From Microcaldota archaeon (lineage in GTDB: Archaea; Micrarchaeota; Micrarchaeia; Micrarchaeales; CABMGC01), in NCBI GenBank assembly GCA_028867145.1, contig JAGWGX010000005.1:1-50581 (forward strand): a stretch of DNA of 50,581 nucleotides, given 5' to 3'. Positions 29,762 to 45,371 of the stretch are shown piece by piece; within the stretch, counting starts at the first letter, position 1, and the number at the start of each line of letters is the position of its first letter. Made by a program: the position numbers and the translations under genes. The notes under the pieces are model-generated. The model saw nothing but the letters and a program-made list of their open reading frames with translations, was not told where the DNA came from and ran no database searches.

Positions 29762-30160
29762 TTAGCATACGGTCTGGAAGAAAATATTTTGCGTGTAGGA
29801 GTTTGGGGTTTGTGCAACGGGTATGTTGACGCCCAGGTAAATGGTGTTGGTCGAAAGAGAGGGCAGCAGCATCGCGGTGTTTCCAAATGCGAGGCTGACG
29901 GAATTTGAGAGGTATCCCGCCCCATTATTGTTTGCGGAATTTGAGTATATCGTATTGCTCACGAAGAAGTTTATCGCTGAATTGTCCCCAATCCAGTTGC
30001 TACCGGATATCCAAAGATATCCCTGAATGTTGCCGTTGTTTGTTGAGGAGATTGCATTTGCAAGCGGGGAGTTGCCCCCTGGGTTTGTGGCAGGGAGGCT
30101 CACGGCGCTGTTTGAGAGCACAAGCGTGCAGGTGGTTGGAACGTTCACTGTGGCAATCAC
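29762..30160 (-). CDS. Small surface protein sharing the giant protein's C-terminal domain (caller start is truncated; coding reads upstream to ~30283)
   Basis: VNVPTTCTLVLSNSAV...IWISGSNWIG-type repeat ending QNIFFQTVC; upstream in-frame translation ISINLLLLIGIFSLVFLSVGGLGPSLFANSATNVIATVNV. Confidence 0.7.
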   Translation of the reverse strand: MIATVNVPTTCTLVLSNSAVSLPATNPGGNSPLANAISSTNNGNIQGYLWISGSNWIGDNSAINFFVSNTIYSNSANNNGAGYLSNSVSLAFGNTAMLLPSLSTNTIYLGVNIPVAQTPNSYTQNIFFQTVC

Positions 30161-30281
30161 GTTCGTGGCTGAATTCGCAAAGAGTGATGGACCCAGTCCC
30201 CCAACTGAGAGAAAAACAAGAGAGAAAATCCCAATAAGCAGGAGCAGATTGATAGAGATGGTGCCAACGCCTGTCGTAGCA

Positions 30282-31052
30282 TCACTTCTTTTTGGCGCCT
30301 TTCTTCTGCTTCCTTGGGGAGCGCTTTGCGGATTTCTTTGAGGCTGTGGACTTTGCTGCCTTCTCCGCCATGCTCGCCTGCTTGCCTATCATTCGCGCCT
30401 CTGCTAGCAGCTTTGCGCGCTCAGACCTTAGCTTCTCCTCCATCCTCCTTAGCTTCTCCTTTGCGATCTCCTTTTGCCTCTTCGCCCTCTTCGCCCGCTC
30501 CTCCTTGCTGTTGTACTTAGGGAGGAACTTGTATTTGTAGTAGTAAATTCCAAGCGCTATTGCAATGACGATGCCCGCGATTATCGCTGCAAGGGCGAGC
30601 GGGTCAATTGTCGCGGGCTGCGACTTTATCACAATCTCCTTGCCGACTCCGCCCTGTATCTGGGCGCCGCCGGTTCCCTGCGTAAAGTTGAGGGGCTGCG
30701 CAACAGATCCTATGACGCTGTCCCACCTGATCCCAGCCTTGTTGTTTAGGTAGGGCAGTGTTATCACCACCTTAACGGCCACTGTCGTGTGCGGGGCTAT
30801 CGTGCCATTCATCGGCACCGCGACAACGGTAGGGGCGGTTGCATTTGGAATAGGGGTGAATGTGGGCAAAATGACCCTGTAGGCAAGGGGGATGTCGCCG
30901 GTATTCACAAGCGACCAGTTCCTTGTGGCGGTGCTGCCGATGCTCATGTTTATCACAAACGCACCAGCCGCCTGCCCGAGCTGGGCATGGTAGACGTTGG
31001 CGGTCAAAATAAGGGATAGTAGGAAAAAGAAAAGAGGAACCCTAATCGCCAT
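30282..31052 (-). CDS. Membrane protein: signal peptide, ectodomain, TM helix, long basic coiled-coil cytoplasmic tail
   Basis: LFFFLLSLILTANVYHA signal, PLALAAIIAGIVIAIALGIYYY TM, Lys/Arg-rich tail to KKGAKKK. Confidence 0.75.
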   Translation of the reverse strand: MAIRVPLFFFLLSLILTANVYHAQLGQAAGAFVINMSIGSTATRNWSLVNTGDIPLAYRVILPTFTPIPNATAPTVVAVPMNGTIAPHTTVAVKVVITLPYLNNKAGIRWDSVIGSVAQPLNFTQGTGGAQIQGGVGKEIVIKSQPATIDPLALAAIIAGIVIAIALGIYYYKYKFLPKYNSKEERAKRAKRQKEIAKEKLRRMEEKLRSERAKLLAEARMIGKQASMAEKAAKSTASKKSAKRSPRKQKKGAKKK

Positions 31053-31061
31053 CCAAACACT

Positions 31062-31592
31062 TTAGCAAACGTTATTTATCACAACGTTCTGTGTGTATGA
31101 ATTTGCTGTCTGCCCATTTGGTATGTTAACCCCAAAGTACAAAGTGTTCGTGGCACCTGTGGACACAAGCTCTCCGGTGTTTCCAGTTGCCAGCCCGACC
31201 GAGTTGAAAAGGTAACCCGCTCCCTCATTGTTGAAGGAGTTAGAGTAGATAGTGTTTGCAACGAAGAAGTTGACGGCGATGTTCACGCCTATCCAGTTGC
31301 TTCCGGAGATCCAGATGTACGAACCCACGTTGCCGTTGTTCGTGTCCGAGACGACGTTGCCGCTTGCCCCGACCCCGGTGCTTGTGCCAGGATTTACGGT
31401 GAAGAAGTTAATTGCGCTGTTTGAGACTGCAAGAACGCACGTGGACTGCACGTTGACCGTCGCAACCACGTTTGTTGACCCGGAGTTAGCAGAAAGTGAG
31501 ATTCCACTGAATGTGAAAGACACAACGCTCAAGACCATCGCAGCCATAAGCGCGATGATGCCCAAATTTACAATAACAGCCCTATTGTTCAT
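31062..31592 (-). CDS. Small surface protein sharing the giant protein's C-terminal domain
   Basis: MNNRAVIVNLGIIALMAAMVLSVVSF N-terminal helix; TCVLAVSNSAINFF...QNVVINNVC; TATA-like TTTAAATAG about 30 nt upstream (~31622-31632). Confidence 0.75.
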   Translation of the reverse strand: MNNRAVIVNLGIIALMAAMVLSVVSFTFSGISLSANSGSTNVVATVNVQSTCVLAVSNSAINFFTVNPGTSTGVGASGNVVSDTNNGNVGSYIWISGSNWIGVNIAVNFFVANTIYSNSFNNEGAGYLFNSVGLATGNTGELVSTGATNTLYFGVNIPNGQTANSYTQNVVINNVC

Positions 31593-31654: not shown

Positions 31655-34600
31655 TCAGCACACATTGAGGAAGACCACGTTTTGGCTAAAGTAGGCGGAG
31701 GTCTCGGCCGTAGGGATGTTAACCCCGAGGAAAAGGGTGTTTGGAGTCGTTGTGGTCACAAGCATTCCGCTGTTTGATGTAGAGAGGCCGAGGGAGTTGG
31801 CAAGATATCCGGCGCCCGTGTTGCCAAACGAGTTTGAGAAGAGCGTGTTTGAGACGAAGAAGTTGGTCGTCGCGGGGCTCGCAAACCAGTTGCTCCCGTA
31901 AACCCAGAGGTACGAGGACTGCGTTCCCGCATTGGTGTCGGTCACCGCATTTGTTGGTGAGCCGGAAGATCCCGGAATCACGTCATTGGCCGAGCCGCTA
32001 AAGAGGACCACGGTGTTGCTAAGCGAGAGGGTGCAGGTTGAGGAAATTGTATAGCCTATGGTGGCGGTGTTGCCGGTGCCGGAGAGGGCGTTGCTCTTGG
32101 GATCTCCTGCGACCAATGTGCCTGAGGAGGGAGTTGGATTGAACAGGTTGCCAAGGAAGGTGACCGCGTTTGCGATGAAGGAGTAGCTTCCGGCAGGCAC
32201 ATTGAAGGTTATCCTGTTGTTTAGTATTAGGGGCGCATAGTAGATCGTGTTGGTGGAGGCAAAAAGTGTGCTTCCGCCGATGCAGTACCAGTTGTCCCTC
32301 CACGGATCTGGGCAGCTCATTGAGGTGTCGTTGGTGAAGATATTGCCCACCCCGTTTGAGGACCAGGCCCCTATTCCGGGATTTAGGATGGGGGCAAAAT
32401 AAAGCGAGTTCTGCGGCCTCGATCCCTGATAGCCGCTCTTGCAGAAGATATTTCCCGAATCAATAGTGCACTGCCCATACTCCCCATTGTAGGGGATCGA
32501 GTTGGTGTTCACCCATGCTCCCACGATGTTTGTGGAGAAGATCGGCGCATAATATGCCTGCTTGTCGTAACCCACTCCGTTGTAGCCATCAACGCAGTAG
32601 ATGTAGCCGTTGTATACCGGACACTGCAACCCCTCAATTGTCTGGGGATATGAGTTTGTGTTGATCCAGGCGCCAAGCGCGTTGGTGGTCGTGACTATGG
32701 GCGCATAGTAAACAAGCGCCTGATCCACAAAGGTATTTGCCTGTCCGCCTACGCAGTAGATGTTCCCGTTGTAAAATCTGCAATCCTGCGTTAGTATGTT
32801 CACAGGGTATGCGGTGGTCGAGGTCCAGCTTCCAAGCGCGTTGGTGGCGCTGCTAATCGGGGCCCAGTAGACATCGGAGACGTAAAGGCTTCCCGTGCTC
32901 TCCCCCCCAATGCAGTAGATGTTGCCGATGTTGCTTGGAATGCATACGGGATTGATTATGTTCTCAGGATAAAGCTGCTGCTGCGTCCAGCTCTTGATTA
33001 TGTTGCTGCCAAGTATCTGCGTCTGCTCCACGTCGTTGTTGTTGCCAAGGGTGGGGTTTGCCCCCCCGATGCAGTAGATATTGCCATTATACTGCGCGCA
33101 CCCCTCGTTCTCCACATTTTCAGGATACGCATTGCCCACGGACGGGCTGCTGCCCAGATTGGTCCAGGCGCCAGCGATTGAGTTGGCGATTGTCTGGGCG
33201 GTGAGTATTCCGTCATAGACCACGTTCCAAGATGCGCCTATGGGCAGACCGATTGCGGCAAAATAGGAGTTATACTTTATGGAGGTTACGGTTATGGTGT
33301 TTGTCGTCGAGATTTTAAAGGGGGTTGTTGCGCTGTCCGTTATTGTGAGTGCAAGGTCAAGCGGCCCGAGCGCATTGTTCGTGCCGGTTGGCAGGGAGAA
33401 TGAGAAGGTGTTTGAGCTTACGGTGTTTGAAACGAGCATGTTGGCGATCACATTTCCGTTTATGCTGTTGGTCAAATAGTAGTTGTAGGTGTATGATGAG
33501 CTTCCTCCAGCAAACGAGGCAGTGAGCAGCTCTGCCTGGCCCTGGGCGGCAAACCAGTTTGAAGAGATAATGGAGTTGCCGGAGCTTGAGAAGGTGAGCA
33601 GCCTGTTGTTTTGCTCGTCACCGACGACTAGGAAGTTGCCGTTTGAGTTGAACGCCATCCCCTTGGGGCCCACAAAGTTCTGCTGCGTGGTTGCGCCCAC
33701 GGAAGTCGGCCCTCCTGAAGGGCTAAGGCTGTTTTGGCCCAGCACAAGCGAGGCAACCTCTCCGGTCGAGAAGGGGGACAAAAACTCAAGAACGCGGTTG
33801 TTGTTGCTATCCACCACCCAGAGGTTGTTTGCATTGTCAAACGAGATCGAGCTTGGCCCGCTTAGCCCGTTGTTTGTTGCAAGCGCCGTGTTCACAGTGT
33901 AGCTGGTCTGGCCGATTATTATGTTTGCGCCCTCGTTGCTTGTGAAGGGCGTGTCGTACTCGAGGACTCTGTTGTTCCCAAAGTCCGTGACCCAGAGGTT
34001 TCCGCTGGGGTCAAAATTCACCCCCTTTGGAAAGATCAGCCCGTTCTGGGTTAGAAGGCCGGCGTTGGTCGTAAAGCTGCCCTGGCCGATAGAGACCGTT
34101 GCGCCCTCGTTGCTCACAAAAGGGGTTGGGTATTTTAGGACCCTGTTGTTTGCAGCATCCGTTACCCAAAGGTTGCCGCTGGGATCAAACTCCATCGCAA
34201 TAGGGGAGATCAGCCCGTTCTGGGTTAGAAGGCCGGTATTTGAGGTGAGCCCTGACTGGCCTATTGCAACCGTCGCAGACTCGCCCGTGGAAAGGGGGGT
34301 CGGATATTTTAGGACACGATTGTTCCCAAAGTCAGCCACCCATAAATTCCCGTTGGAATCTATTCTCACAGTATAAGGATTTATCAGCCCTGCAGCGGTG
34401 TCTGCGCCCGTGTTCGCAGTAAAACCGGATTGGCCGATTACTATCCCGGCCCCTTCATTGTTTGTGAAGGGAGAGTTGAACTCAAGAATCCTGTTGTTGC
34501 CGCTGTCTGGGACGAAGATGTTGCCGCTGATGTCAAAGTCTGGGCGCCTTGGCAGGAAGAGGCTGTTTTGCGTCGTGGATGCAACCACCGCGTTTGTTGT

Positions 34601-37249
34601 AAAGCTGCCCTGACCCAGCACATTTACCGCTGAGTATCCCACAATCAGCGCCGAATTGATGGTAAGGCTGAGGGATGCCGGAGTTACCTGGTTTGCCGCA
34701 TGGTCAAAGTAATTTTCATTGAAGCTCCAGCTCCCATACACTGTGTTAACTCCCAGGATGTTCGCGTTGTAGCCCACTGAATTGTATGTGAAGAGTACGT
34801 TTGTCGCCTGGTATGCATTCACCGTAAGCGCGGAGTTAACGATGCCCCCGAGCAGTATGTTGGCAGTTAGGGTGTTGGTCCTGGAATTTGCAGTGAGCAC
34901 ATTTGTTCCGGGAACTGTCCAGACCCAGTTACCGACATAGGGCGCAATCCCGTTGCCAATTATGGTGTTCAGGGTTGAATACTGACCAACGTCAATCACG
35001 CTGTTGGAAACTGATGTGGCGCCAGGGGAGCCTCCATTTGCAAGGAGCAGGGGCTCGAACCATCCTGCCTGGACTATCGTATTTCCAAGCAGAGTGAAGA
35101 AGGTGTTTTTTGAGAGAGGGCTGGCAATTATGCCATTTACGGAGTTGCTCACAGTCCAGCCGTTGAACGTCCAGGACGTTCCGCCGCTTTGGGGCGCAAT
35201 CGCGTTTATCGTCCCATCGCCGATCATGTTCAGCACGCTGTTGTGCGCAAACGTCACGCCCGCGGCTCCCCCGGTCGGTATCGTTAATATGTTGCCCGTG
35301 GTCGGCAGGTCGTTGAGCGTGAGCGCATATGGAGGGAAGACGTACGCTGTTGCAAGGATCCCCGTGTTTGGACGAGACGCCAGAGTGTTTTGTACCGTGA
35401 AGGTTATGGTTCCTGCGGCAACTGAGTTGCATGCGATAGCAACCGCAGAGGCCCCGGTGTTGTATGCGACGTTTTGGGTGAATGCTGTGGTGCATCCCGT
35501 GGGCTTTGTGATGGTGTTAAGCAGTATGTTAGAGGAGGCGGAGAGAAGGACGACGAAGCTGTTTGCCTGTGCAACAGTGAAGCTAAGCGCAAGCGTGTTG
35601 GACTTCGCAACATTGGTCGAGAAGGTGACTGTTCCGCCGTTTGGGGTATTTGAACCTGTTGGAATCAGGACATTTGCGCCAATCCCTGCTATCACAATGT
35701 TTGAGGTTGCGGTAGTGGTGGTGGTAACGCTATTTGAGGTGGAGTATCCTGCGGTTGCAAGGAGCACCGAGTTTATTGCATTGACGGTGTTGGTGTAACC
35801 GGCGCTTGATATTGGAACCACCGCACTTTTTCCTCCGAGGCCACTTGCGGAGCTGTAGAAGTATGTTGTGTAGCTGCTGCCGATTATGTCCAAGGTGAGG
35901 GAGGTAACGGACGCGCCCACCGCATTCCCTGTTGCGTAGGAGACCGCATATGCGGAGAGGGAGTTTGAGGCGGCGCTAAAGAAGTAGTTTGTGATATTTG
36001 AGCCGGTGTAGGTCGTGGGGAGTGCATCCCAACTGTTTTGAGAGGGAACAAACTTCATGAGCCTGACATTCCCATTCGAGATTCCCTGCGAGGCCATCCA
36101 GGTTATCGGGACGGTGAAGTTGTAGGTCACATTGGCAACCGAGGGGTCTATTGAGCCAGTGTTGTTTGAGTTGCTCTCGTTTATCTGGATGTACTGGAAG
36201 ACGTTGTTCTTGGGCCTTGCTGCTATCCCCGTAATTGGAGCAGGCTGGTCCACGACCGAGATATTGAACCTTGACACCGCCTTTGAGAATCCGATCCTCA
36301 CATCGCTAAACGTTGAACCTTTCACGCTCAGGTGCGTGTCGGAGAAGTTGGCAACGGTCACTAGCGTCTTTGTCCTTGCGGCAAGCGATCCCTCAACTGT
36401 GCCGTTTATCTTTGCTCCCGCAAGTTTGGGCGCGGTGGTCGTACTTGAGGAGGAAGTTGTGGAAGTGGTTGAAGAGGTTGTGGAGGAGGTGGTTGTGGAA
36501 TTGAGTGTTGAGTTGGAGGGCAAAATGGTGGAGGTAGAGGTGGAAAGAGTGGAGGTAGAGGAGGTTGTTGAAAGAGAGGAGGTTGAAGTTGAAGAGGTGG
36601 TTGAGGAGGTCGAGGAGGTGCTAATCGTGGTAGTTACAGGAGTTGAATTTAAGGCAAGATAAACCGCATTTGTGCTGCTGCCCGTCTGCAAAAATCCGCT
36701 AGAGGGCAGTGGCACGTACTTTATCCCATTTATGACCACGTTGGAATAAAGATAGCTGTACAGTCCGTAGTGAAGGAAAATTTTGGTCGAGTTGGAGCTT
36801 GAGGTGTTTTGCACATTGTAGTAAAGCACTCCCCAATTCACCCCTGCGGGAAGTCCAGATTCCTTAAAGTTCGTGGGAAGCGTGAAATCAATATGCTCCA
36901 TGGAGCCCGAGTTCAAATTGCCGGACAATGGTGAGGGAGTCAAAGTAACATTGTTATACGGGACGGGCTGAATGCTAAAGTAGTACATTCCACTTGTTGT
37001 GTTGAAATAGATCTGATTTTGTGAGAGGGCTGAGAGGGAGTTGGAATTGTAGCTTACACTCCAGAGGGTGTTTTGGGGCAGGCCATTTTGGATAAAGGCG
37101 GTGTTCTGAAAGACAATAGAATTGGAAATTGAATTTGCGGAGGTTGAGTTGCTTGGTGCAAAGGTTTGGATAGGGGGATACTGCAAAATGAGCGAGAAAA
37201 GAATCATGAACGCTACTGAAAAACTGTAAAAGCGTGTTTCGGAATCCAT
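31655..37249 (-). CDS. Giant cell-surface protein (1864 aa): Ser/Thr-rich linker, PGF-pre-PGF-like domain, six NHL-like and six Kelch-like repeats, C-terminal shared domain
   Basis: Uninterrupted ORF; repeated GNLWVxDxxNNRVLxYxTPF and CxxxxGNIYCxGG; TTTSTTSSTTS linker; ends QNVVFLNVC. Confidence 0.88.
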   Translation of the reverse strand: MDSETRFYSFSVAFMILFSLILQYPPIQTFAPSNSTSANSISNSIVFQNTAFIQNGLPQNTLWSVSYNSNSLSALSQNQIYFNTTSGMYYFSIQPVPYNNVTLTPSPLSGNLNSGSMEHIDFTLPTNFKESGLPAGVNWGVLYYNVQNTSSSNSTKIFLHYGLYSYLYSNVVINGIKYVPLPSSGFLQTGSSTNAVYLALNSTPVTTTISTSSTSSTTSSTSTSSLSTTSSTSTLSTSTSTILPSNSTLNSTTTSSTTSSTTSTTSSSSTTTAPKLAGAKINGTVEGSLAARTKTLVTVANFSDTHLSVKGSTFSDVRIGFSKAVSRFNISVVDQPAPITGIAARPKNNVFQYIQINESNSNNTGSIDPSVANVTYNFTVPITWMASQGISNGNVRLMKFVPSQNSWDALPTTYTGSNITNYFFSAASNSLSAYAVSYATGNAVGASVTSLTLDIIGSSYTTYFYSSASGLGGKSAVVPISSAGYTNTVNAINSVLLATAGYSTSNSVTTTTTATSNIVIAGIGANVLIPTGSNTPNGGTVTFSTNVAKSNTLALSFTVAQANSFVVLLSASSNILLNTITKPTGCTTAFTQNVAYNTGASAVAIACNSVAAGTITFTVQNTLASRPNTGILATAYVFPPYALTLNDLPTTGNILTIPTGGAAGVTFAHNSVLNMIGDGTINAIAPQSGGTSWTFNGWTVSNSVNGIIASPLSKNTFFTLLGNTIVQAGWFEPLLLANGGSPGATSVSNSVIDVGQYSTLNTIIGNGIAPYVGNWVWTVPGTNVLTANSRTNTLTANILLGGIVNSALTVNAYQATNVLFTYNSVGYNANILGVNTVYGSWSFNENYFDHAANQVTPASLSLTINSALIVGYSAVNVLGQGSFTTNAVVASTTQNSLFLPRRPDFDISGNIFVPDSGNNRILEFNSPFTNNEGAGIVIGQSGFTANTGADTAAGLINPYTVRIDSNGNLWVADFGNNRVLKYPTPLSTGESATVAIGQSGLTSNTGLLTQNGLISPIAMEFDPSGNLWVTDAANNRVLKYPTPFVSNEGATVSIGQGSFTTNAGLLTQNGLIFPKGVNFDPSGNLWVTDFGNNRVLEYDTPFTSNEGANIIIGQTSYTVNTALATNNGLSGPSSISFDNANNLWVVDSNNNRVLEFLSPFSTGEVASLVLGQNSLSPSGGPTSVGATTQQNFVGPKGMAFNSNGNFLVVGDEQNNRLLTFSSSGNSIISSNWFAAQGQAELLTASFAGGSSSYTYNYYLTNSINGNVIANMLVSNTVSSNTFSFSLPTGTNNALGPLDLALTITDSATTPFKISTTNTITVTSIKYNSYFAAIGLPIGASWNVVYDGILTAQTIANSIAGAWTNLGSSPSVGNAYPENVENEGCAQYNGNIYCIGGANPTLGNNNDVEQTQILGSNIIKSWTQQQLYPENIINPVCIPSNIGNIYCIGGESTGSLYVSDVYWAPISSATNALGSWTSTTAYPVNILTQDCRFYNGNIYCVGGQANTFVDQALVYYAPIVTTTNALGAWINTNSYPQTIEGLQCPVYNGYIYCVDGYNGVGYDKQAYYAPIFSTNIVGAWVNTNSIPYNGEYGQCTIDSGNIFCKSGYQGSRPQNSLYFAPILNPGIGAWSSNGVGNIFTNDTSMSCPDPWRDNWYCIGGSTLFASTNTIYYAPLILNNRITFNVPAGSYSFIANAVTFLGNLFNPTPSSGTLVAGDPKSNALSGTGNTATIGYTISSTCTLSLSNTVVLFSGSANDVIPGSSGSPTNAVTDTNAGTQSSYLWVYGSNWFASPATTNFFVSNTLFSNSFGNTGAGYLANSLGLSTSNSGMLVTTTTPNTLFLGVNIPTAETSAYFSQNVVFLNVC

Positions 37250-37300: not shown

Positions 37301-38074
37301 TTAGAAGCCGATCACTCGCCTTAGCCACCCGATTATTCCCCCGCCGCTTGGAGCCGCGGGCGGGACGCTTATTTGCAGGGAGTAGCCCCTTGAAAACTTT
37401 TCCATCACCTTTGTAAAAGGGGCGGTGCTGTACATGAACACAGGGATCTTGGAGGCAATGCTCATTGGCACGCTGTCATCCTCCGGAAAGAGCGCGGAAA
37501 CCTTGTTCCCATAGGTGTCCTCTATCTGCTCCACGTTCAGCTCCCACCTCCTGTTTCTCACCCTGTTGATCACTATGCTGTGCTTTAGGTGAAGCTTGCC
37601 AAATATTTGGGAGAGGCGCATTGCGCTTGCTGTGGCCTGGATGTCAGGCGTTATAACTATTGCGGCTTCGTCAGAGTTTCCGAAAAAATTGTTTTGGGAA
37701 AAGCCCGGGGGCGTGTCGATTATCACAAAATCGTAGGAGGTGCTTTTTATCAGCCTGTCAAATCTTTTTATCTGGGCCTGGTTGGGCTCATACATGCCAG
37801 AACTCTGCTCCCCTCCAAGCACGTGGATGCCTGTGGGCGAATGAATAGATATCGAATTTGCGAGATTTGCTTTTCCAAGCATAACGGACTTGAACCCCTT
37901 GTTTATGTTCTCAAGCCCCAGATGGAATCCGACCACCGGATTCACATAGTCAGCATCCACTATGAGCACCTTGTGGCCCATGTTCCTCAAAGCGACTGCA
38001 AGATTTACGGAGATGGTCGTCTTTCCAACCCCTCCCTTTTGCGATGAGATTCTAATAGTGTACGGATTTGCCAT
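37301..38074 (-). CDS. MinD/ParA-like P-loop ATPase
   Basis: [17 protein letters not shown] deviant Walker A, IVDADYVNP, IIDTPPG; C-terminal GGGIIGWLRRVIGF. Confidence 0.92.
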   Translation of the reverse strand: MANPYTIRISSQKGGVGKTTISVNLAVALRNMGHKVLIVDADYVNPVVGFHLGLENINKGFKSVMLGKANLANSISIHSPTGIHVLGGEQSSGMYEPNQAQIKRFDRLIKSTSYDFVIIDTPPGFSQNNFFGNSDEAAIVITPDIQATASAMRLSQIFGKLHLKHSIVINRVRNRRWELNVEQIEDTYGNKVSALFPEDDSVPMSIASKIPVFMYSTAPFTKVMEKFSRGYSLQISVPPAAPSGGGIIGWLRRVIGF

Positions 38075-38078
38075 GCGC

Positions 38079-38885
38079 CTACCTTCCCTGCAAAATCTTG
38101 CGTATTGCGAAGATTATTTTTGAGAGCACGCCTTCCTGTTTTGGCGAATTTTTGCCCGCAAAGCCAAGCTTCACTGCATACCTATCAGCAAGGCTTTTTA
38201 TAGCCCTGCTGAAGGGGGCGTGCGGATTTGTGGTGTACGCAGGAACATGCTCTGCAACGCTAATCGGGATCGTCTCGTCATCCGGAAGCGTAGCGCTGAT
38301 CTTTCCGCGGTAGACCTCCTCCATCTCCCTTGCATGCAGCTCGTACCTCTTGTTCTTGAACTTGTTCACCACAAGGATGTGCTCAAGTCCAATCTTGTCG
38401 TAGTGGTTTGCAAGCCTTGCCGCGCTAATTGTTGCGGAGGTCTCAGGGGTGGTGATGATTAGCGCCTCGCCAAATGCCTTCAGGTTCTCCTCTGGCAAAA
38501 ATCCCGGGGGGGTGTCAACTATCACGATGTCATATCCGCTCTTTTCGATCTGCCCAAAAAGGGTAGCAAGCTGCTCCTTTGTCGGAGTGTGCGTTTGCGC
38601 ATGCATCTCGCCTGGCAGGACGTGCATCCCTGTTGCAGCGTGGATAACTACAGCATTGCTTTTTAGCGCGGATTTCCCCATCAAGACGGACCTCACTCCG
38701 CTGTTGCTGTTTTGAAGTCCTAGGTGAAAGCCGAGGCTTGGGTTTATGAAGTCAAAATCAATCAGCAAGACCCTCATCCCAATTGCGCTAAGGGCCGCGG
38801 CCAGATTCACGGAGACCGTTGTCTTCCCCACTCCCCCTTTTTGGGATGAGATCCTAATCGTAAAGGGCCTGCTACTCATTCTCAC
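38079..38885 (-). CDS. MinD/ParA-like P-loop ATPase
   Basis: [34 protein letters not shown]-terminal [17 protein letters not shown]; start overlaps the upstream stop. Confidence 0.92.
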
Positions 38886-40902
38886 TCCTCTTTATTTGCT
38901 CGCGAAGCCGCACCAGTTGCTCTGAGGTCTCCTTACGGTACCTTGGCTTTGAGAGGTAGCGCCTAATGAGCAGCAAAATAATGGCTGCAGCAATTATTGC
39001 AATCACCCCGATTCCCTTGAAGGGAAGCGCGGAAATTATGCTGCCGATTTGGTAGGGCGTGCTTGGCGGCTTTGTTGCACTCCCGTTCGGCGACTGCTGA
39101 TTGTTTAGCGCGATGAGCGGAAGGGAGTAGGTGTAGTTGAAGCCGTCCGCGGTATTTATGTATAGATTGAGAAGGTATGTGCCCTGCGCTGTGCCCGTCG
39201 AGACGTCGAACCTTGGATTTATCAGCTGGTTAGGATTTGCGGTTATGGTCTGGCTCGCATTTGCGATGCTAATGCCCGTGGGCGCAGTAAGGGTGAATGT
39301 TATTTGGTTTGGGTCATCGCCAGTATAGAGCGCAAATATGCTGATCCTGTTTGTTGCGTTTGTGTAGAATGTGGGGAAGGCGATGTTCACCACCTTTAGT
39401 ATGCTAGAGGGCGCAGGAGGCGATGGCTGCGCAAGCATGTTCTGTATTACGTCAAGCAGCCTCATGCTCTGCGGCCTGTTGATTGTGTAGTACCCAAAGA
39501 CTGATGTGGATGGGCTGATCTGCGGAATCTGCCAGGTTATTGTGTAAAATCCCGGAGGATCGGTGACATTTGCCTGAAGGCCGGTCGTTGTTATGTCAGA
39601 GAGGTTTTGCGCAAGCGCAAGCGGGATTAGGGTCTGCAGTGTGACATTGTTTAGCGATTTTGTGGTGGGGTTGCTCACCTGGATCACTCCCCTTGCGGCG
39701 TTGCTCCCGTTTAGCAGCACCACCTGGTTGACGACCTTTATGCTGTTGTTTAGGGGCGAGTAGATGTTGAGCGTGAAGTACTCGGTCTGGTTGACGCTCG
39801 TGCCTCCCGCATTTAGGTTAACGCTAAGCGGTAGGATGTATGTGCCAGAGGGCATGGTCGCATTTGGGGCCACGAAAAGCTGTATGCTCACCTGCTGATT
39901 CGGCAGGAGGTAAAGCGAGGAAGTCGAGAGTTTCACGAAGTTTTGGAAGGATTTTGGAAATGTGAACTGGATTGACTCAGGCTGGTTGCCCGCATTATGT
40001 AGCGTGAATGTTGAGAGCCCCTGCGAGCCAAGCTGTATAGAGCTGTATATGGGAGTTGAGACAAACGAGAGGGCGGGAATCGGAGTTATCGGTGTAGTGG
40101 CAGCGGTTGCCGAACCTCCGCCTCCGGCGCCCCCAACAGTGGTGCCTGATGATGAGACAGTATAGCGCGCGGTCAGGATGTTCGTGGTGACAAGCGTGTT
40201 GACTGTGTAGGTCTCATAGGCGGTGATTGCGTAAGATCCCGAGGTCGCGGTCGCATTGTTTAGCGAGATTGAATATGTTGCGCTCTGCCCAGGGGAGAGG
40301 GATGACTCAGGGTACTGGAGCTTAAGCGTGGTCGGGCCAATGATGTTTACATAAAGTGTTGCGGCACCAGAGCTAAACTGCCCAATGTTCTGCGAATTAA
40401 GGCTGATTGTAATTGAGCTGCTCTGCACCAGGCTTGAAGGCACCGAGAGCGATGAAAGGGAGAGATTCTGGGGGTTTAGCAGCGAGAAGGTGTTTGTGGA
40501 GGAGGCGATGAAGCTGTTGTAGGCGAATGTTATCGTGCCCGAATAGGCGGTGTTTGTTAGTATCTGCGAGTCCACAATCGCATTGAACGTCTGCTGCGCA
40601 AAGCCGATGCCGTTTGCAACCAGGTTGTTTGAGAAGACGACCGTGTTCGTGTTAATTTGCGTGAGCACGAAGTTCCCGTTCATCGAGCCAATCGAGCATG
40701 CGCTAAGCGTGTTTAGCGTGTATGGGGTGCTTATTGTGCCGACCCTGCTGTAGACCGAGGAGGGAATGTAGGAGACCGCAAAGGTGCAGGCGGGCGTAAC
40801 TGTTATGCTCGCCACGATGTTTGCGGTTTGGGAATTTGCAAAAAATAAATTGGGCAAAAAGAGTAAAATAAATAACGTCAGTAGCCCCAGGCGCATTCGC
40901 AT
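38872..40902 (-). CDS. 676-aa surface protein: signal peptide, repeat-rich ectodomain, C-terminal TM anchor and charged cytoplasmic tail
   Basis: [21 protein letters not shown]-glycosylation sequons, [22 protein letters not shown]. Confidence 0.8.
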
Positions 40903-43073: not shown

Positions 43074-43880
43074 TTACTTGCGCTTTTTGCCGATAAGTCC
43101 GTGGAATATCTTCACCAGCGGATGACGATCATCAGCCTCCTCACCTTGCGCCGTTCCAATTCGCGATGCGTACATCTGCGCGAGGTCCTTTATTGTTCTT
43201 GAAAATGGCGCCTTGCCATCAAGCGAGAAGGTCGGAACGCCCTCAGCGACCCCGACCTGCACCTTTTCATCCTCCGGGAACATCTCGCTCACCTTTGTCT
43301 CAGCCATTTCCTCTATCTCTCGCATGTCAAGCTCGAACTTCCTGTTTCGCACCCTGTTTATTATCAAGTTGCATTTGAGCTTTGCCTTGCCGTACCTGCC
43401 AAGCATCTTTATCGCGCTGATGCAGCTTGCCTTGTTTGGCTGCGCGACAAGTATTGCCTCATCAAGCACCGTGAGCGCGCTTGGGAACTCTATCCCGGGC
43501 TGCGTGTCGATAATCACAAAATCGTAGTCGAGGCCAGCTAGCTTTTTCATGAACGCGTCAATTTGGGGCGTTGTGATCTTGACGTCTTTTGTAGTTGTGA
43601 TCGTCCTTGAAAGATTTCCAGGAAGAATGCGGACCCCGCTTGAGGGATGCGGAACTATTGCGCGCTTTATGTCAATCTTGTTTGAGATCACGTCAAGCAC
43701 CCCATTTGAGGTGTCGTTTAGCCCCATGTAAAGCCCGACGCATGGGTTGATTATGTCCGTGTCGACAATCAGGACATTGTAGCGCATCTGCTTTAGCGCG
43801 ACAGCGAGGTTTATGGAGACTACGCTCTTGCCCACCCCGCCCTTTGGGGAGCTAACTATTATGATGTAGGGCTTTTGCAT
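43074..43880 (-). CDS. MinD/ParA-like P-loop ATPase
   Basis: VSSPKGGVGKSVVSINLA, IVDTDIINP, IIDTQPG; C-terminal HPLVKIFHGLIGKKRK. Confidence 0.92.
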   Translation of the reverse strand: MQKPYIIIVSSPKGGVGKSVVSINLAVALKQMRYNVLIVDTDIINPCVGLYMGLNDTSNGVLDVISNKIDIKRAIVPHPSSGVRILPGNLSRTITTTKDVKITTPQIDAFMKKLAGLDYDFVIIDTQPGIEFPSALTVLDEAILVAQPNKASCISAIKMLGRYGKAKLKCNLIINRVRNRKFELDMREIEEMAETKVSEMFPEDEKVQVGVAEGVPTFSLDGKAPFSRTIKDLAQMYASRIGTAQGEEADDRHPLVKIFHGLIGKKRK

Positions 43881-44321: not shown

Positions 44322-45371
44322 TCACAGCCAGCCAGCAAAGCTCATCATGAATGCAAGCAGCACAAATGCCGCCTCAAGACCGATAAGCCAGTTTGAGACC
44401 TCGTACTCCTTCATCGGCCTTATGTTCATAACAAAGTGCGTTAGGCTGTAGATCTTCTTTCCATAGGGTGCCTTGAAGGTTCCGTCCTTTTGCCTAATTC
44501 CAAGGTCGGTCACCTTGAAGCCTTTCCTTAAGTGCAAGAAGAACTCGATTATCCAAGGCAGGAAAATTATGAGACCAAATGCCTGCGCGTGACCAACTGC
44601 CATTATAGCAACTAGCGCGCCGCCGATGCAGTACGTGAAGCTATCTCCAGGGATTATCTTTGCAAAGAATTTGTTGAAAGGCCAAAACGCAAGCAGCACC
44701 ATGAACAAAAGCGCGGATAGCAGCGCGCCTATGTATGAGCCAAAGAAGGTTGTGTACAGCAAAAGGCCAAAGCTTGCGATTATCGCCATGCCAGGCTGAA
44801 GCCCGTCAAATCCACCGAGAAGATTGAATGCGTTTGAGATAAAGATTACTGCAAGCGGTAGGATGAAGATCGGGTACAAAAGCCCAAGGTTAACTGTCCC
44901 GAAAAATGGGATCGCTACCGTGCTAACTCCTGCGTTTATCGCCATGAGTGGAATTGCGCCCACAACTGTGAGCAGAGGCTTTTGCCACTGCTTTAGCCCC
45001 TTCTTTATATCCTTTAGGTCCGTTGTCATCACCCTTCTTGCGCTAACGTTTATGTCATCCAAAAATCCGACGAAGGTTATGAGCATTATTGAAAGCGCGA
45101 CGGCGATTAGCTGCTGAATGTTAATTAGAGGAGAGAAGACAAACGTGCCGCCAAATGTGTAGGCCATCATTCCAATTATCAGCCCGAACGCGACCGCGAC
45201 GCCGCCTGAGCTTGGAAGCTTTATCGCCTTTGCCTTGTTGTGGTCCTCGCCAATAACTCCTGCGCTATAGAAGTAAGACATCAGGAATTTTGTTGAGTAG
45301 AAAGTGACGATGAATGCGATGACTGCAGGGACTATTACGGTCAGATAAGTGTGATACTGGAAGACTACCAT
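44322..45371 (-). CDS. Glycosyltransferase 4/MraY-like GlcNAc-1-phosphate transferase family
   Basis: KLPSSGGVAVAFGLIIG, FVGFLDDI, NAFNLLGGFDGLQPG; multi-TM. Confidence 0.88.
   Translation of the reverse strand: MVVFQYHTYLTVIVPAVIAFIVTFYSTKFLMSYFYSAGVIGEDHNKAKAIKLPSSGGVAVAFGLIIGMMAYTFGGTFVFSPLINIQQLIAVALSIMLITFVGFLDDINVSARRVMTTDLKDIKKGLKQWQKPLLTVVGAIPLMAINAGVSTVAIPFFGTVNLGLLYPIFILPLAVIFISNAFNLLGGFDGLQPGMAIIASFGLLLYTTFFGSYIGALLSALLFMVLLAFWPFNKFFAKIIPGDSFTYCIGGALVAIMAVGHAQAFGLIIFLPWIIEFFLHLRKGFKVTDLGIRQKDGTFKAPYGKKIYSLTHFVMNIRPMKEYEVSNWLIGLEAAFVLLAFMMSFAGWL

Follow-up and report, generated by a model that had tools for sequence, protein, structure and literature searches.

Donor strands join the threads of Sulfolobus acidocaldarius (Saci_0406), archaeal fibres for which, in the part of the report available to us, no chaperone could be assigned and the sole proposed cap is a donor-strand protein without an acceptor (PMC9715654). 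The TasA fibres of Bacillus subtilis also work by donor strands, and the accessory protein TapA has the N-terminal strand of TasA (PMC10151520). In Micrarchaeota, Kelch and YVTN propellers were reported in 2017 on surface proteins of Mia14 ('Ca. Mancarchaeum') that also carry CARDB, so the presence of propellers on the cell surface is not a novelty in this group; unlike the proteins described below, those of Mia14 are given as surface-layer or adhesion proteins, with no mention of a pilin-like domain, of partners such as D and E, or of a donor strand in the accessible part of that report (PMC5498576). Filaments at contacts between Micrarchaeum and its host have been seen by cryo-tomography, with their proteins unnamed, and were attributed to the host by the authors (PMC8975820). 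A limited literature search returned no publication linking Micrarchaeota with donor-strand pili.

The window (i.e., the whole 50,581-nucleotide stretch analysed here) belongs to a 0.68-Mb draft genome of the order Micrarchaeales and encodes a giant protein (gene C) within an A-B-C-D-E gene cluster:

38872..40902, minus strand: gene A, CARDB-containing surface protein, putative base anchor, with a donor-strand-like 12-residue motif at the mature N-terminus (aa 28-39)
38079..38885, minus strand: gene B copy 1, MinD-like ATPase (profile match)
37301..38074, minus strand: gene B copy 2, MinD-like ATPase (profile match)
31655..37249, minus strand: gene C, giant secreted surface protein (open reading frame with ATG start, 1864 aa)
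31062..31592, minus strand: gene D1, small protein with the C-terminal domain (CTD) of the giant, putative pilin; signal sequence followed by the strand NVVATVNVQSTC (CTD match)
30282..31052, minus strand: gene E, putative assembly factor with a signal sequence, a PapD/ASH-like ectodomain, one transmembrane segment and a Lys/Arg-rich tail (profile)
29762..30256, minus strand: gene D2, second small CTD protein (CTD match)

The CTD is a conserved domain of ~135 aa common to the giant, D1 and D2 (D1-D2: 56%; D1-giant: 50%). The listed reading frame of gene D1 begins at 31661 (GTG) and overlaps the stop of the giant; homologues and the signal sequence favour the ATG at 31592. No ATG, GTG or TTG lies upstream of the D2 signal sequence in two species (window 30256-30290, minus strand; L039 8450-8605), and the D2 frame opens across the stop of gene E (AAGAAGTGA). 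Either of two things would account for the missing start: an ACG codon that is conserved, or a +1 shift leading out of E into D2. Full-length gene A proteins of relatives carry a C-terminal transmembrane segment and a basic tail. The profile of the gene E ectodomain matched the ASH-type domains of HYDIN, CFAP65 and OCRL (E-value: 3e-9 to 0.01; HYDIN/CFAP65: 3e-9). ASH and PapD domains form one structural group, which makes a chaperone-like role for E attractive but unproven; no outer-membrane usher was seen among the cluster genes. Outside the cluster, the window holds a third MinD-like gene (43074-43880, minus strand) and a gene for a MraY-like membrane sugar-phosphate transferase (44322-45371, minus strand), perhaps a glycan lipid-carrier enzyme, that reaches 43 of the 450 bits of the archaeal MraY cut-off.

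Gene order was surveyed around 50 giants of the order, in regions picked by CTD or giant matches and not by their neighbours, using MinD, A and E profiles seeded from this window. Among the 36 giants with visible upstream sequence, a MinD-like gene lies directly upstream in 24 and gene A within three genes upstream in 27. Downstream, a small CTD gene (D) directly follows 30 of 49 giants, and gene E is found within four genes in 30/49. This arrangement spans 12-14 genera. About 40% of the giants with visible downstream sequence have no adjacent D or E; some are cut by contig ends, and in some genomes (e.g., G014, G036, G037) D/E are located elsewhere. The CTD and E occur together in 71 genomes (CTD: 79, E: 74, n = 164; Fisher p-value: 4e-33, ignoring shared ancestry).

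The giant itself comprises, from the N- to the C-terminus, two NT1 domains, a Ser/Thr stalk, PGF-pre-PGF, D1 (a domain distinct from gene D1), IGA, six NHL blades, IGB, half of an NT1 domain, six Kelch blades, the other NT1 half and the CTD:

37160..37249, minus strand: N-terminal hydrophobic signal sequence, aa 1-30 (inferred from hydropathy; 57% identical in the sister genome G003)
36650..37129, minus strand: NT1 pair, GLPxxxW-type beta-sandwich domains, aa 41-200 (sequence)
36428..36640, minus strand: Ser/Thr-rich stalk, aa 204-274 (composition)
35930..36394, minus strand: PGF-pre-PGF domain (TIGR04213 match, aa 342-437)
35045..35707, minus strand: D1 domain, common to many giants of the order (sequence comparison)
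34634..35044, minus strand: IGA, Ig/PKD-like domain (52% identity to the sister giant of G003)
33572..34630, minus strand: NHL propeller, six blades with a mostly 58-aa period, aa 874-1226 (profile and repeat motif)
33272..33583, minus strand: IGB, Ig-like domain (sequence comparison)
33274-33170 and 32221-32090, minus strand: halves of the split GLPxxxW sandwich (NT1) around the Kelch propeller (sequence)
32222..33163, minus strand: Kelch propeller, six blades with a C-x8/9-C pair per blade, aa 1363-1676 (profiles and AF2 model)
31658..32077, minus strand: CTD, Cys at both ends (aa 1739, 1864), predicted donor-strand-pilin-like fold (AF2 model)

The initial annotation had described six NHL-like units preceding six Kelch-like units in one chain, a PGF-pre-PGF-like region and a Ser/Thr-rich stalk, and had suggested profile searches and an AlphaFold model as checks. 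These descriptions hold. The stalk has S or T at 60 of 76 residues (aa ~200-275), the PGF-pre-PGF region matches TIGR04213 (42.4 bits vs cut-off 28), and NHL precedes Kelch when the minus strand is read. The NHL region matches Pfam NHL (E-value: 7.4e-26; 89 bits vs cut-off 20) and repeats the motif GNLWV..NNRVL at aa 909, 967, 1025, 1083, 1141 and 1204, with the first four gaps of exactly 58 aa and the last of 63. It also matches solved six-bladed propellers (designed Pizza6: 9e-32; PknD 1rwi: 1.7e-16). Homology to these solved propellers suggests a closed ring in the giant as well.

Kelch similarity, weak in the giant alone, came mainly through homologues. A Pfam search with the full-length giant gave no Kelch model below E 1, and the Kelch region cut out alone reached 3e-5 against a Kelch model, under the cut-off of that model; among 29 homologous arrays, 22 have a match to Pfam Kelch_1/Kelch_6, and the Kelch profile matches solved Kelch domains at 1e-9. 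The AlphaFold check was done for the Kelch part, with an AF2 model covering aa 1322-1864 (pLDDT: ~95 for the first blades and about 56-89 for the last one). In the PDB, the model is best matched by the designed six-bladed Kelch protein SAKe6 (E-value: 6e-16; target TM-score: 0.76), and six four-stranded blades are predicted to close the ring. The NT1 and CTD parts of the same model were poorly predicted (pLDDT mostly <50), so the model is uninformative on mutual domain placement. Chance repeats as a source of the propeller units are excluded by the Pfam and model scores. The propeller is nested inside a GLPxxxW-type sandwich that is split at the same point in two homologues (L026, L027). Every blade of this Kelch type has a Cys pair, with ten Cys columns invariant across the 29 arrays, and their spacing suggests that the pairs may form disulfides. 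About six further Cys-paired Kelch arrays lie elsewhere in the same genome (G000 contigs C7, C37, C2 and C33; L044-L047), in open reading frames of 455-786 aa that constitute an expanded paralogue family.

Compared to the cluster, the propellers vary greatly. The same-genus sister G003 contains the whole cluster (B2: 76%, D1: 73%, E: 73% identity) and the adjoining glycosyltransferase (83%), and its giant, encoded in the same place, keeps the signal sequence, IGA (52%), IGB (46%) and CTD (43%) and has neither propeller. Other giants of the order have two Kelch propellers, another propeller type plus Kelch (e.g., a WD/lactonase-type propeller in L025), or none, and a search of genome contigs with the whole giant as query found no relatives. 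The NHL propeller is present in 3/164 genomes of the order. In a tree of 39 NHL propellers, that of the giant falls in an archaeal group (98/94) that includes Nitrososphaerota and Thermoplasmata and is set in a bacterial background, and these 39 rows appear to point to neither a donor nor a direction of transfer. Two Thermoplasmata proteins near it in the tree combine six NHL blades with an NT1 domain; in L097 (436-3711) and L102 (3999-6236), both from Thermoplasmata, six blades close to those of the giant occur with a GLPxxxW domain in repeated form. Eight archaeal genomes that have similar NHL propellers, including one from Micrarchaeota, yielded no CTD in a search without a positive control. 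From the comparison of giants, two kinds of propeller in one chain are one outcome of free head exchange. As judged from sequence comparison, the NHL and Kelch pair is a lineage-specific choice of head, and the conserved parts are the CTD and the A-B-C-D-E gene cluster. This qualifies two proposals of the initial annotation: surface exposure and an adhesin-like role are still the best reading of the giant, although its propeller pair is not conserved, and the domain order that was to be sought in other archaea varies between relatives.

The C-terminal 'cap' of the initial annotation does exist as a domain, and it turns out to be the key part of the protein. The AF2 model of the CTD (pLDDT: 84.5) had a single PDB match below E 1e-3 in Foldseek, the TasA fibre 8aur (E-value: 4e-4; TM-score: 0.59), followed by FimG, Pyrobaculum bundling pili (7ueg), Csu, CFA/I, PapA, Caf1 and TLP-1a/1b, with GH123 Ig domains ranking close after TasA. 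The scores are modest and Ig-like folds are generic, and the matches are suggestive of a pilin-like beta-sandwich subunit. At the sequence level, none of 35 CTDs matched a Pfam model above its cut-off or a PDB entry. There was no PHROGs match either, and a phage origin was dropped on that ground. Because homology to the TasA/camelysin sequence family was not found (35 CTDs, Pfam and PDB sequences), we do not claim membership in a known pilus family.

After the hydrophobic signal, D proteins have the pattern N-V-x-A-x-V-x-V-x3-C, with hydrophobic residues at positions -4, -6 and -10. Conservation reaches 3.4 bits per column, a large hydrophobic residue occupies -4 in 95%, and no comparable strand conservation was found at the CTDs of giants. 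Using a leave-one-genome-out PSSM built from the D strand, median scores were 13.8 for D and 7.3 for the N-termini of A proteins (A body: 1.7; p-value: 3e-9), whereas the region before the CTD of giants scored no better than elsewhere in these proteins (-1.1 vs -1.3; p-value: 0.13). The gene A protein of the window scored 12.5, the best of 19. Thus, with the strand present in D and A and absent before the CTDs of giants, the pattern expected of tip, shaft and base is found. The resemblance between D and A could also reflect shared ancestry rather than interchangeable donor strands. Tandem CTD fusions of ~330 aa (CTDx2) were observed in L024, L037, L081, L085, L086 and L090, where a strand-like linker precedes the second domain and looks suited to self-complementation. 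A type IV pilin identity of D was dropped, given that no prepilin motif was seen by eye and the N-terminus looks like an ordinary signal sequence.

We lean towards the view that the giant serves as an exchangeable, adhesive tip protein on a predicted thin surface fibre of the donor-strand type, encoded by the conserved cluster. By analogy with tipped donor-strand pili, the two propellers and Ig-like domains would form the binding head, which may contact an archaeal host, and the CTD would be an incomplete pilin-like fold that accepts a beta-strand. The small D proteins would polymerise into the shaft, the N-terminal strand of each entering a groove in the subunit that follows. At the far end, the outermost D would plug its strand into the CTD of the giant, an acceptor-only tip. 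Gene A protein would present the same strand at its mature N-terminus and fix the fibre base in the membrane by its C-terminal helix. The membrane-bound, PapD/ASH-like E probably protects or delivers subunits, and the MinD-like ATPase B probably positions or powers assembly from inside, a role that is a guess. No membrane anchor was seen in the 1864-aa chain of the giant, and the cluster is the putative supplier of one, via gene A. A PGF-CTERM sorting signal is absent from the C-terminus of the giant, which is formed by the CTD and has Cys as its last residue (PGF-pre-PGF being N-terminal), and sortase-type PGF-CTERM anchoring was dropped for lack of this signal.

Similar to the Saci_0406 threads and to Pyrobaculum 7ueg, which is among the CTD fold matches, the system is archaeal and shows an ordinary signal sequence, an N-terminal strand and a pilin-like fold; it differs in the absence of a sequence match and in the two Cys at the CTD ends, and the accessible part of the thread report describes neither a large adhesive tip nor a MinD partner (PMC9715654). 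TasA provides the best CTD fold match, and the accessory protein TapA has its donor strand in common with TasA, a relation like that of A to D. However, no sequence similarity was detected, and TapA is small whereas A is ~680 aa and membrane-anchored. We know of no TasA domain on a tip adhesin. Chaperone-usher pili (FimH/FimG/FimA, PapD) share with the cluster a head joined to a pilin domain without a donor strand at the tip, small shaft subunits and a PapD-like partner. In contrast to these pili, the cluster lacks a visible usher, E is membrane-anchored with a basic tail, and the PapD likeness of E rests on profile similarity to ASH domains.

The head swap on a conserved operon in G003 speaks for the giant as tip. 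Against it, the predicted likeness of the CTD to fibre subunits is one of fold with sequence matches absent, the ~40% of giants without adjacent D or E would fit it poorly, and the proposed thread cap, in the part of the report available, has the polarity opposite to that of an acceptor-only giant (PMC9715654). A surface lattice, S-layer or other, formed by the giant and D, with the CTD as a lattice contact without strand exchange and A/E anchoring or folding the lattice, is a rival reading that we regard as unlikely. Such a lattice would suit the large, S/T/N-rich and probably glycosylated giants, here clustered with one glycosyltransferase gene, the proteinaceous S-layer of Micrarchaeum harzensis, whose anchoring is unknown (PMC8975820), and the description of the Mia14 Kelch/YVTN proteins as surface-layer components in the accessible part of that report (PMC5498576). 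However, the CTD is too patchy for this (about half of the genomes of the order, 79/164), heads are unrelated between same-genus species, the CTD fold matches are dominated by fibre subunits, and the conserved N-terminal strand of D and A is left unexplained.

That strand asymmetry (D/A vs giants) also weighs against a display scaffold in which the CTD, as a dockerin-like docking or retention domain, ties unrelated secreted proteins to D/A on the membrane. Such docking would suit heads that differ widely yet share a single C-terminal CTD, and a giant without a visible membrane anchor beside an A protein with a C-terminal transmembrane segment, but D genes stand in rows of two or three and also form CTDx2 fusions, which suits polymers, and we consider docking somewhat less probable again than a lattice. 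Lyases, lactonases and oxidases occur among NHL or Kelch propellers, and the giant could be a secreted enzyme with the remainder serving for display. The NHL region shows sub-cut-off similarity to SMP-30/gluconolactonase and ScyD/E/F-type proteins, and relatives of the Kelch array include epimerases (NANM match in 6/29); no enzyme-level model reached its cut-off, however, and propellers are freely swapped between relatives, so that we give an enzyme very little credence.

Returning to the giant as an adhesive tip, three elements are apparently new, as far as we can tell: the family of CTDs, the cluster A-B-C-D-E and the distribution of the strand over putative tip, shaft and base. We put forward more tentatively, as a possibility short of an even chance, that this is a new archaeal fibre system. 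In it, E and the MinD-like B would build and position a donor-strand pilus with two-part tips, whose heads (NHL, Kelch, Ig and others) are swapped between close relatives. The pilus would give Micrarchaeota ectosymbionts their means of physical contact, and some of its heads would be common to other archaea such as Thermoplasmata and Nitrososphaerota. Within the literature compared, in part seen as excerpts, no donor-strand pilus of archaea has been described with an assigned chaperone or adhesive tip; if the proposal is true, archaea would have a FimH-like two-part tip together with a PapD-like partner. For the attachment of Micrarchaeota to their Thermoplasmatales hosts, the cluster provides candidate proteins for tip, shaft, base and assembly across many genera, and heads that change while the pilin domain stays the same would offer a direct route to studying the host range of these symbionts.
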